From positions 2,790,001 through 2,854,000 of the forward strand of contig NZ_AP025017.1 in the NCBI RefSeq assembly GCF_019974135.1: a stretch of 64,000 nucleotides of DNA. The letters are read 5' to 3'. Of this stretch, positions 22,778 to 26,102 are shown in pieces. The notes beneath the pieces are model-generated. The model was not told the origin of the DNA and searched no databases. It was given only the letters and a program-made list of their open reading frames with translations. Within the stretch, counting starts at the first letter, position 1. The number at the start of each line of letters is the position of its first letter. This DNA is from Actinomyces capricornis (lineage in GTDB: Bacteria; Actinomycetota; Actinomycetes; Actinomycetales; Actinomycetaceae). The translations under genes and the position numbers were made by a program.

Positions 22778-24892
22778 ATGACCACCGAGGTCACTGCAAC
22801 TGCCACGACCACCAGCAGAGAAGATGCCTGGGAGGGCTTCGTCACCGGTCCCTGGGCGCAGGGCACCGACGTCCGCGACTTCATTCAGCGCAACTACCGC
22901 CCCTACGACGGCGATGCCTCCTTCCTCGCCGGGGCCACGGACAAGACCCTGCGGCTGTGGGACACCCTGGAGAAGGACTACCTGGCCGAGGAGCGCAAGG
23001 TTCGCATCCTCGATGTCGACACCCACACCCCGGCCGATATCGACGCCTTCAAGCCCGGTTACATCAGCCAGGACGACGATGTCATCGTGGGACTGCAGAC
23101 CGATGCGCCGCTCAAGCGCGCCATGATGCCCAACGGCGGCTGGCGCATGGTGGAGACCGCCATCAAGGAGGCCGGCAAGGAGGTCGACCCCGAGGTCAAG
23201 AAGATCTTCACCCAGTACCGCAAGACCCACAACGACGCCGTCTTCGACATCTACACCCCGCGCATCCGTGCGGCCCGCTCCTCCCACATCATCACCGGCC
23301 TGCCCGACGCCTACGGCCGCGGCCGCATCATCGGGGACTACCGCCGGGTGGCCCTCTACGGCGTGGACAGGCTCATCGAGCTCAAGCAGATCGCCAAGGA
23401 CGAGGTGGCCGACAAGCCCTTCTCCGAGCACTGGGCCCGCTACCGCGAGGAGCACTCCGAGCAGATCAAGGCGCTCAAGAAGCTCAAGGTCATGGCCGCC
23501 TCCTACGGCTACGACATCTCCGGTCCCGCCCGCACTGCCCACGAGGCCGTCCAGTGGACCTACTTCGCCTACCTGGCCTCGGTGAAGTCCCAGGACGGCG
23601 CCGCCATGAGCATTGGGCGCCTGTCGGCCTTCCTGGACATCTACTTCGAGCGGGACCTGGCGGCCGGCCTCATTGATGAGACGCGCGCCCAGGAGCTCAT
23701 CGACCACATGGTCATCAAGCTGCGCATCACCCGCTTCCTGCGCACCATCGACTACGACCAGATCTTCTCCGGAGACCCCTACTGGGCCACCTGGTCCGAT
23801 GCGGGATTCTCCGAGGACGGCCGCTCGCAGGTCACCAAGACCTCCTTCCGCCTGCTGCAGACCCTGCGCAACCTGGGCCCCGCCCCGGAGCCCAACATCA
23901 CCATCTTCTGGGACGAGCGGCTCCCGCAGGGCTACAAGGAGTTCTGCGCCCTGATCTCCATCACCACCTCCTCCATCCAGTACGAGGCCGATGAGCAGAT
24001 CCGCGAGCACTGGGGCGACGACGCCGCGATCGCCTGCTGCGTGTCCCCCATGAAGGTGGGCAAGCAGATGCAGTTCTTCGGCGCCCGCGTCAACTCCGCC
24101 AAGGCGCTGCTCTACGCCATCAACGGCGGGCGCGACGAGATGACCGGCAAGCAGGTCGTCACCGGGCTGCCCGGCATCGAGGGCGACGCCCCGCTGGACT
24201 TCGACGAGGTCTGGGACAAGTACGAGAAGATGCTCGACTGGGTGGTGGCCACCTACGTCGAGGCCCTCAACATCATCCACTACTGCCACGACCGCTACGC
24301 CTACGAGTCCATCGAGATGGCCCTGCACGACTCCGAGATCATCCGCACCATGGGCTGCGGCATCGCGGGGCTCTCGATCGTGGCCGACTCCCTGAGCGCC
24401 ATCAAGTACGCCAAGGTCACGCCCGTGCGCGACGAGACCGGCCTGGTGGTGGACTACGTCACCGAGGGCGAGTTCCCCATCTACGGCAACGACGATGACC
24501 GCGCCGATGACATCGCCGCCACCGTGGTGCACACGATCATGTCCAAGATCAAGGCCCAGCCCTTCTACCGGGACGCCATCCCCACCCAGTCGGTGCTGAC
24601 CATCACCTCCAACGTCGTCTACGGCAAGGCCACCGGCAACTTCCCCTCGGGCCACCGCAAGGGCACGCCCTTCTCCCCGGGCGCCAACCCCGAGAACGGC
24701 ATGGACACCCACGGCATGGTCGCCTCCATGCTCTCGGTGGGCAAGCTGGACTACAACGACGCGCTGGACGGCATCTCGCTGACCAACACCATCACCCCCC
24801 AGGGGCTGGGCCGCACCGAGGAGGAGCGGGTGGCCAACCTCGTGGGCATCCTCGACGCCGGATTCGTCCCCGAGGACTGCGCCGACATCTGA
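22778..24892 (+). CDS. pflB: Pyruvate formate-lyase large subunit lacking the glycyl radical domain
   Basis: A 704-residue glycyl radical enzyme body converting pyruvate and CoA to acetyl-CoA and formate. The adjacent catalytic cysteines are Cys420-Cys421 (IACCVSPMKVGKQMQFFG), equivalent to E. coli Cys418-419. The protein stops at VGILDAGFVPEDCADI, which matches E. coli PflB just before the C-terminal loop carrying the radical glycine. The missing 60 or so residues are encoded by the next gene. No frameshift joins them: the 62-bp gap holds an in-frame stop, a palindrome and a new ribosome binding site. The start ATG has AGGAGG 7 nt upstream. A large subunit alone should be inactive. Confidence 0.95.
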   Translation: MTTEVTATATTTSREDAWEGFVTGPWAQGTDVRDFIQRNYRPYDGDASFLAGATDKTLRLWDTLEKDYLAEERKVRILDVDTHTPADIDAFKPGYISQDDDVIVGLQTDAPLKRAMMPNGGWRMVETAIKEAGKEVDPEVKKIFTQYRKTHNDAVFDIYTPRIRAARSSHIITGLPDAYGRGRIIGDYRRVALYGVDRLIELKQIAKDEVADKPFSEHWARYREEHSEQIKALKKLKVMAASYGYDISGPARTAHEAVQWTYFAYLASVKSQDGAAMSIGRLSAFLDIYFERDLAAGLIDETRAQELIDHMVIKLRITRFLRTIDYDQIFSGDPYWATWSDAGFSEDGRSQVTKTSFRLLQTLRNLGPAPEPNITIFWDERLPQGYKEFCALISITTSSIQYEADEQIREHWGDDAAIACCVSPMKVGKQMQFFGARVNSAKALLYAINGGRDEMTGKQVVTGLPGIEGDAPLDFDEVWDKYEKMLDWVVATYVEALNIIHYCHDRYAYESIEMALHDSEIIRTMGCGIAGLSIVADSLSAIKYAKVTPVRDETGLVVDYVTEGEFPIYGNDDDRADDIAATVVHTIMSKIKAQPFYRDAIPTQSVLTITSNVVYGKATGNFPSGHRKGTPFSPGANPENGMDTHGMVASMLSVGKLDYNDALDGISLTNTITPQGLGRTEEERVANLVGILDAGFVPEDCADI

Positions 24893-24907
24893 GCCGCCCG
24901 GGCGGCT
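24892..24907. repeat. 16-bp palindrome between the two pfl genes
   Basis: AGCCGCCCGGGCGGCT begins at the last base of the pflB stop codon. It could form a short stem or act as a processing or attenuation site that sets the ratio of the two subunits. Confidence 0.45.
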
Positions 24908-24954
24908 GACCCAACACGACACCGATAGAACCCATCTCACGAAAGGGGCCGATC

Positions 24955-25200
24955 ATGGCCACATACGAAGAGCGCCTCGCCTCCATGAAGGCGCAGCGCC
25001 AGAACAACGGCGGCGTCAAGGGCCTCTACCACGCCAACATCAACGTCCTGGACCGCAACACCCTCGAGGACGCGATGGAGAACCCCGAGAAGTACCCCAA
25101 CCTCACGGTGCGCGTCTCGGGCTACGCCGTCAACTTCGTCAAGCTCACCCGGGAGCAGCAGCTCGACGTCCTCGACCGCACCTTCCACTCCCAGGCCTGA
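24955..25200 (+). CDS. Separate glycyl radical subunit/domain of pyruvate formate-lyase (GrcA-like)
   Basis: An 81-residue protein. Residues 26-81 align closely with the E. coli PflB C-terminus: [21 protein letters not shown], with the radical-bearing glycine at Gly56, then [13 protein letters not shown]. It is shorter than the stress-induced spare part YfiD/GrcA (about 127 residues) and has its own 25-residue N-terminal segment ([20 protein letters not shown]). AAAGGGG at 24942-24948 lies 6 nt before the ATG. In E. coli GrcA rescues oxygen-cleaved PflB; here the large subunit has no such domain of its own. I therefore infer an obligate second subunit activated by the adjacent PflA. Confidence 0.95.
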
Positions 25201-25226: not shown

Positions 25227-26102
25227 ATGTCTGAGACGACGACGGCCGCGCAGGCGGGCGGCCGGGACCAGGACTTCCTGGCTCCGGCCGCCCGCCTGCG
25301 CGGCGCGGGCATCGGAGGGCTCGAGGAGCTCACCGACCTCGAGCGCTCCGAGCGCCTGGAGCGGATGCGCAGTGGCGAGCTCGGCTCGATCCACTCCTGG
25401 GAGCTGGTCACCGCCGTTGACGGCCCGGGCACCCGGATGACCGTCTTCCTCAACGGCTGCCCTCTGCGCTGCCAGTACTGCCACAATCCCGACACCTTCC
25501 TCATGAAGGACGGCGAGCCGGTGGAGGCCGCCGAGCTGCTGCGCCGCATGCGCCGCTACAGGGGCGTCTTCCGCGCCTCCAAGGGCGGCATCACCCTGTC
25601 GGGGGGAGAGGTCCTCATGCAGCCGGCCTTCGCCGGCCGGCTCCTGTCGGGGGCCAAGGCGATGGGCATCCACACCTGCATCGACACCTCCGGCTTCCTG
25701 GGGGCCAACGCCAGCGACGAGATGCTGGACAACATCGACCTGGTGCTTCTGGATGTCAAGAGCGGGGACGAGGAGACCTACAAGCGGGTGACCGGGCGGT
25801 CCCTGGCCCCCACGATCGCCTTCGGCGACCGCCTGGCCGCCAGGGGCATCGAGATCTGGGCCCGCTTCGTCCTGGTCCCGGGCCTGACCGACGACCCCGG
25901 CAATGTCGAGAGGGTCGCCCGCATCATCGAGCGCTGGGACACCGTCTCGCGCGTCGAGGTCCTGCCCTTCCACCAGATGGGCACCGACAAGTGGGACAGC
26001 CTGGGGCTGACCTACACCCTGCGCGAGACCCGGCCCCCCGAGCCCGAGCTCGTGGAGTCCACGCGCGCCATCCTCCGCTCCCACGGCTTCACCGTGCACT
26101 GA
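25227..26102 (+). CDS. pflA: Pyruvate formate-lyase activating enzyme (radical SAM)
   Basis: A 291-residue radical SAM enzyme that abstracts hydrogen from the radical glycine of pyruvate formate-lyase using a [4Fe-4S] cluster and S-adenosylmethionine. The cluster motif CxxxCxxC is Cys78, Cys82, Cys85 (GCPLRCQYCHNP). The GGEVLMQPAF loop and KRVTGRSL region follow as in PflA. The N-terminus is about 49 residues longer than E. coli PflA. An internal ATG at 25365 would give a canonical length, so the extension may be an annotation choice or a real addition for the two-part substrate. It starts 26 bp after the glycyl radical gene. Confidence 0.94.
   Translation: MSETTTAAQAGGRDQDFLAPAARLRGAGIGGLEELTDLERSERLERMRSGELGSIHSWELVTAVDGPGTRMTVFLNGCPLRCQYCHNPDTFLMKDGEPVEAAELLRRMRRYRGVFRASKGGITLSGGEVLMQPAFAGRLLSGAKAMGIHTCIDTSGFLGANASDEMLDNIDLVLLDVKSGDEETYKRVTGRSLAPTIAFGDRLAARGIEIWARFVLVPGLTDDPGNVERVARIIERWDTVSRVEVLPFHQMGTDKWDSLGLTYTLRETRPPEPELVESTRAILRSHGFTVH

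Follow-up and report, generated by a model that had tools for sequence, protein, structure and literature searches.

Organization of the locus

The window, by which we mean the whole 64,000-nt stretch of Actinomyces capricornis DNA that was analysed (contig NZ_AP025017.1, positions 2,790,001 to 2,854,000), carries a large gene related to pyruvate formate-lyase (PFL), a small gene with a glycyl-radical motif, and an activase gene, all on the forward strand:

22778..24892, + strand: PFL body subunit, 704 aa (ATG at 22778, TGA at 24892; PF02901, 666 bits)
24893..24954, + strand: intergenic stretch, 62 nt, with a GC-rich palindrome and the ribosome binding site GAAAGGGG
24955..25200, + strand: glycyl-radical subunit, 81 aa (ATG at 24955, TGA at 25200; RVSGYAV with Gly56)
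25227..26102, + strand: PflA, radical SAM activase, 291 aa (TIGR02493, 298.4 bits against a cut-off of 231.75)

The body and the small open reading frame lie in different frames, and the ribosome binding site is located 5' of the small-gene ATG. The stop codon of the small gene is separated from the start of PflA by 26 nt. The body retains the Cys420-Cys421 pair, together with the equivalents of R176, W333, and R435, which, along with C418 and C419, we take to be active-site or catalytic residues of E. coli PFL. The RVSGY glycyl-radical loop is absent from the body chain and is encoded by the separate gene; by the topology described in PMC8683613, the C-terminal strand, radical loop, and helix are all lacking from the body. 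The small protein opens with about 20 residues that have no PFL match, followed by the radical domain. These data bear out the coordinates and residues in the first-pass annotation, which had described a 704-aa body with the Cys pair and without the radical loop, and an 81-aa gene 62 nt downstream with its own ribosome binding site and an RVSGYAV loop at Gly56.

Profile models place the break at the same junction. Positions 1-65 of the Pfam Gly_radical model match the large protein, and positions 65-106 match the small one. In an alignment to PDB chain 1h16_A, presumably E. coli PFL, the body reaches residue 694 and the small protein starts at 695. Likewise, the body covers positions 1-681 of TIGR01255 (744 positions) and the small protein covers 680-742. 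On its own, the body scores 987.5 bits, under the 994.2-bit cut-off of this PFL equivalog, and the last 63 model positions that it lacks are found in the second gene. The small protein passes the GrcA2 model NF008341 (166.1 bits, cut-off 145) and fails the GrcA/YfiD model TIGR04365 (85.8 bits, cut-off 170). The closest named proteins of the split PFL are from Actinomyces.

A perfect GC palindrome, GCCGCCCGGGCGGC, occupies 24893-24906, immediately 3' of the body stop codon. The RNA fold of the 62-nt intergenic stretch is not above that of shuffled sequences (z 0.5), and a simple scan found neither a promoter nor a terminator between the body and the small gene. The window PflA carries about 50 residues (25227-25390) ahead of its PflA-model match; this N-terminal extension was considered as a split-linked trait and rejected, as it is also present beside full-length PFLs of the phylum.

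A single PFL in the genome

The genome is assembled as one contig of 3.17 Mb, in which PF02901 matches once and PF01228 twice, both PF01228 matches being the two halves described above. A profile search of this contig found neither a second PFL, which the first-pass annotation had raised as a possible active enzyme in full-length form, nor a further glycyl-radical domain. Given this result, the small protein is expected to act as an obligate subunit and not as a spare part. The separation of the genes, with no complete PFL found, also supports the earlier proposal that assembly in trans would be obligatory.

The locus is best explained as a naturally two-subunit PFL, a reading to which we assign a probability of roughly 0.9. 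In the proposed mechanism, the 704-aa body would provide the barrel along with the substrate sites and Cys pair, and the 81-aa protein would dock as the absent C-terminal part, so that its Gly loop reaches into the active site. Once the small subunit is docked, PflA would generate the radical on its Gly56, and the resulting complex would then convert pyruvate and CoA into formate and acetyl-CoA. Cleavage by oxygen would be confined to the small subunit, which could subsequently be exchanged. The gene structure, the conserved catalytic residues, purifying selection on both parts, their co-occurrence, the lack of another PFL among the matches, and two separate origins of the split are observed; from these, we infer physical assembly, activation in the complex, activity, and exchange after damage.

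Distribution in the family and order

A search of genomes for a short PFL accompanied by a small RVSGYAV protein, as envisaged in the first-pass annotation, found the split to be widespread and the commoner form in the window's family. A small protein over the GrcA2 cut-off is encoded in 156 of 213 family genomes, all 156 of which also have a body-strength TIGR01255 match (E 2e-294 or lower), with adjacency of the two genes established for the individually read loci. Full-length PFLs, defined here as TIGR01255 matches running from position 1-2 to 742-744 without a stop, are present in 32 of the 213 genomes and, among the matches listed, in none of the 156; since full-length matches score highest, they would appear among those listed. 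One further end-to-end match, in G167, has a stop inside and is split (L053). The other 25 family genomes comprise G123, a 79% complete genome with a body and a small match under the cut-off; six genomes in which all matches are weak (best E from 1e-18 to 5e-16) and presumably represent other glycyl radical enzymes; G202, whose match is marginal; and 17 genomes with no match. Varibaculum cambriense is a member of the window's family. According to a genome paper, no PFL was found in this species (PMC4177395), in agreement with the family genomes that lack a match.

No full-length PFL occurs in the 49 genomes of the window's genus among the matches listed. Across the order (248 genomes), a near-complete body was found in 103 genomes among the matches listed, of which 36 are split and 67 full-length when assigned by model coordinates and counted by eye; 19 of the 36 split genomes lie outside the window's family. 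Extra small genes within the family were also considered. In the 16 examined family genomes with two GrcA2-model matches, the second is under the cut-off throughout; 13 of these second matches lie in open frames of more than 800 aa and hence sit in other enzymes, for which reason they were rejected, and the others lie in frames of 314, 125, and 408 aa.

These distributions bear on the possibility that the small protein serves solely to repair an oxygen-cut PFL and is not a constitutive subunit. Its NCBIfam equivalog name, GrcA2, and the domain it shares with YfiD would fit such a role. However, the window genome offers no complete PFL to repair, the sole body found there lacks the domain, and the 156 family genomes with the small gene have no full-length PFL among the matches listed, which makes a repair-only function very unlikely. 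The swap of a damaged radical subunit on top of a subunit role is possible.

A second split form

The window's form of the split, hereafter type II, has a counterpart, type I, in which the break falls about 20 residues earlier. Type II bodies end just past a helix-like stretch, NLVGILDAGF, and the corresponding small protein opens with a segment ending in GG. In type I, the body ends before the helix-like stretch, which is instead carried by the small protein (DNLVxMLDGYxEKGG). Type I is found in Coriobacteriia, Clostridia, Gastranaerophilales, and Spirochaetales. Among 60 Actinomycetota regions, three chosen controls are full-length and the other 57 are split (38 type II and 19 type I). Type I bodies often bear an acidic, Cys-clustered tail past the part common to full-length PFL, for example CGCC, CACC, GCCE, or GACxSPTLFEGLD (e.g., L056, L077, L078, L109, L115, and L189); this tail is perhaps involved in metal binding or docking.

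The reach of type I was surveyed by scanning genome contigs with an alignment headed by a type I small protein. The best 80 loci, a set biased to split forms, comprise 62 split loci, 13 small genes without a nearby body, 1 locus at a contig edge, and 4 fused genes. Named organisms with split loci include Collinsella aerofaciens, Olsenella uli, Ruminococcus albus, and R. bicirculans, and assembled genomes with split loci include Lachnospiraceae, Gastranaerophilales, Spirochaetales, and Erysipelotrichaceae; many of the split loci come from metagenome assemblies, whose taxon labels may be wrong. The accessible part of PMC13278490 contains no formate evidence for R. bicirculans.

In the class of R. 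albus, a PFL over the cut-off is present in 122 of 245 genomes, and 12 of these 122 bodies stop at or before position 674; all 12 short-bodied loci, including that of R. albus, were split on reading (L097 and L182-L192). The class of a Gastranaerophilales genome has a PFL in 6 of 97 genomes, each with a body ending at 663 and a separate small match, and both of the loci read from these six are split. Locus L181, from a 9.2-Mb genome of the window's class, has a body match to position 637 only and no radical motif found downstream, and its PFL is probably a decayed gene. In a phylum sample of 396 genomes, type I coordinates occur in 21 genomes of two families, 19 of which were read. As the bodies from these two families cluster with those of Collinsella and Olsenella, the families are taken as Coriobacteriia.

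Sequence features of split and full-length loci

The 178 loci with a body comprise 131 split loci (92 type I and 39 type II), 45 full-length loci, 1 truncated locus, and 1 with a body only. The gap between the body and the small gene ranges from -17 to 479 nt in the split loci and is a multiple of three in 40 of the 131 (28/92 in type I and 12/39 in type II), close to the one third expected by chance, indicating that no open frame is being kept. A Shine-Dalgarno-like motif precedes the small gene in 131/131 split loci, a count that is not independent evidence, as the starts were picked partly by this motif. The gap data speak to the possibility that ribosomes cross the junction, by reading through the stop codon or by frameshifting, and so still produce a full-length protein. 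Although both pieces share one frame in part of the loci, the chance-level divisibility, the spread of gap lengths, and the differing frames in the window render this mechanism extremely improbable.

Conservation across loci is similarly informative for the two-subunit reading. In bodies of at least 600 aa (E. coli numbering), R176, W333, C418, C419, and R435 are kept in 44/44 full-length, 89/89 type I, and 39/39 type II proteins. A sixth site, H514, guessed to be important, varies in three bodies. The CCV motif is present in 130 of the 131 split loci, the exception probably being L137, which is represented by only 189 residues. An activase motif lies within 1.7 kb downstream of 38/39 type II, 53/92 type I, and 36/45 full-length loci, counts in which many stretches end before 1.7 kb. 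Across nine pairs, dN/dS ranges over 0.12-0.18 in the body and 0.06-0.24 in the small gene, and purifying selection thus acts on both. A catalytically dead body, with the small protein serving another purpose, would be in keeping with the TIGR01255 score under the cut-off. Yet the missing model positions sit in the second gene, the catalytic residues are kept, both parts are under purifying selection, and an activase gene adjoins, so this idea is scarcely credible. The first-pass annotation had named a sequencing error joining both frames as a way for its reading to fail; no evidence was found for breakage of one full-length gene by a sequencing or assembly error, beyond the adjacency of two parts jointly covering most of the family model. 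Such an error has a negligible probability given the one-contig genome, the same break and separate start in 38 further loci from other genomes, and the same break in loci L228-L235, eight more cases that come from the order but not from the window's family.

Origins of the split and probable re-fusion

A FastTree phylogeny of 174 bodies (rows of less than 600 aa excluded, except L128) needs three changes among the type I, type II, and full-length states. A 54-row IQ-TREE phylogeny agrees, recovering type II as a single clade with a support of 100. Joining types I and II in one clade is rejected with a p-AU of 1.11e-50, for groups set after the tree was seen. In both trees, the single-chain PFLs L145, L147, and L151 are nested inside type I, which likely reflects re-fusion. 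Three full-length PFLs, L225-L227, fall inside type II in the tree; they are called Bifidobacterium-like here, the genus name being inferred. They belong to the same PFL subclade as the window's enzyme, and their junction fits both ends of the split form, but they are single chains in contrast to the window's two. Because a type II clade without L225-L227 is not rejected (p-AU 0.44), both an unsplit ancestral state and a re-fusion stand for these proteins. Taken together, the trees and clade tests indicate that the split arose twice and was undone by re-fusion once or twice. The arrangement is not a one-off, being the commoner form in the window's family and having a counterpart that arose independently elsewhere.

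Type II and Bifidobacterium-like PFLs have 11 changes in common at sites that are at least 90% conserved elsewhere. Examples, seen in the window body and L225-L235, are TPDGRR to FPSGHR, and WATES to WATWS beside an active-site Trp. These residues were considered as a split-specific adaptation and rejected, since all 11 also occur in the full-length L225-L227.

Comparison with known systems

The window's pair is closely related in sequence to single-chain E. coli PflB and has the same catalytic residues and activase family, but it consists of two chains broken at E. coli 694/695, compared with one chain of 760 aa. YfiD/GrcA, like the window's small protein, is free-standing and has a C-terminal radical domain. 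According to PMC8683613, however, GrcA rescues an oxygen-cut, otherwise complete PFL and has a disordered N-terminus of 60 aa, whereas no complete PFL was found in the window genome and the corresponding segment of its small protein is about 20 aa.

An engineered E. coli pair, tPFL(1-695) with YfiD, is divided at almost the same position into equivalent parts, and is active once activated (PMC8683613). The same study gives a kcat of 121 per s with YfiD and 204 per s with YfiD 61-127, a radical 32-fold less with YfiD and ~6-fold less with the C-terminal domain relative to cPFL plus YfiD, no binding signal for tPFL plus YfiD in ITC, and no activation of YfiD alone. In contrast to this artificial, poorly activated pair, the window's is the organism's only PFL found. 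Because tPFL and YfiD are weak in both binding and activation, the natural pair would have to dock differently or better. The natural split coincides with the position that proved weak in the E. coli pair.

For Actinomyces naeslundii, formate secretion at low concentration is reported in PMC6493303, whose authors infer PFL use. The accessible parts of PMC9403272, PMC3322345, and PMC3653736 give no account of an obligately split PFL. More broadly, no description of a naturally split PFL was found among the matches listed in the open-access literature, outside which subscription journals mostly lie, and the term 'GrcA2' is absent from open-access papers. The statement in the first-pass annotation that no functional description was known holds to this extent, but the parts already have names in NCBIfam. 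Two type II small proteins, the window's and one other, pass the cut-off of GrcA2 (NF008341), and GrcA3 (NF038360) matches both type I small proteins tested. Unlike the proteins described here, both families are named as autonomous cofactors, and the names are silent on a partner PFL without a radical domain.

Oxygen and the radical subunit

PFL is central to anaerobic sugar breakdown. Many fermenting bacteria rely on it as one of their main sources of formate and acetyl-CoA, and the enzyme is very oxygen-sensitive on account of its radical. Splits of this kind appear to have arisen on at least two occasions and are present in several bacterial groups. Several groups with type I are strict anaerobes, which weakens the case for a benefit to an oxygen-exposed facultative anaerobe, as the first-pass annotation had proposed.

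A natural obligate split would provide a ready system in which to study docking of the radical domain, access of the activase to a glycine in a separate chain, and a possible benefit of exchanging the damaged part. It also suggests that the label of spare part is a poor description of what these small proteins do, and that active enzymes could be overlooked where a pathway survey requires a full-length PFL. A broader and tentative idea, which we hold somewhat less probable than its converse, is that PFL has been cut at least twice into a durable catalytic body and an expendable cartridge bearing the glycyl radical. Damage by oxygen could then be mended by swapping a 9-kDa subunit, and YfiD/GrcA would represent the facultative counterpart of an obligate design that is widespread. 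Consistent with this idea, 9 of the 13 genomes with a lone small gene also have a body, in two cases a fragment only, with its own small gene, and thus carry an extra unpaired copy. The lone small genes of these nine genomes are L080, L081, L095, L096, L100, L105, L106, L129, and L135.
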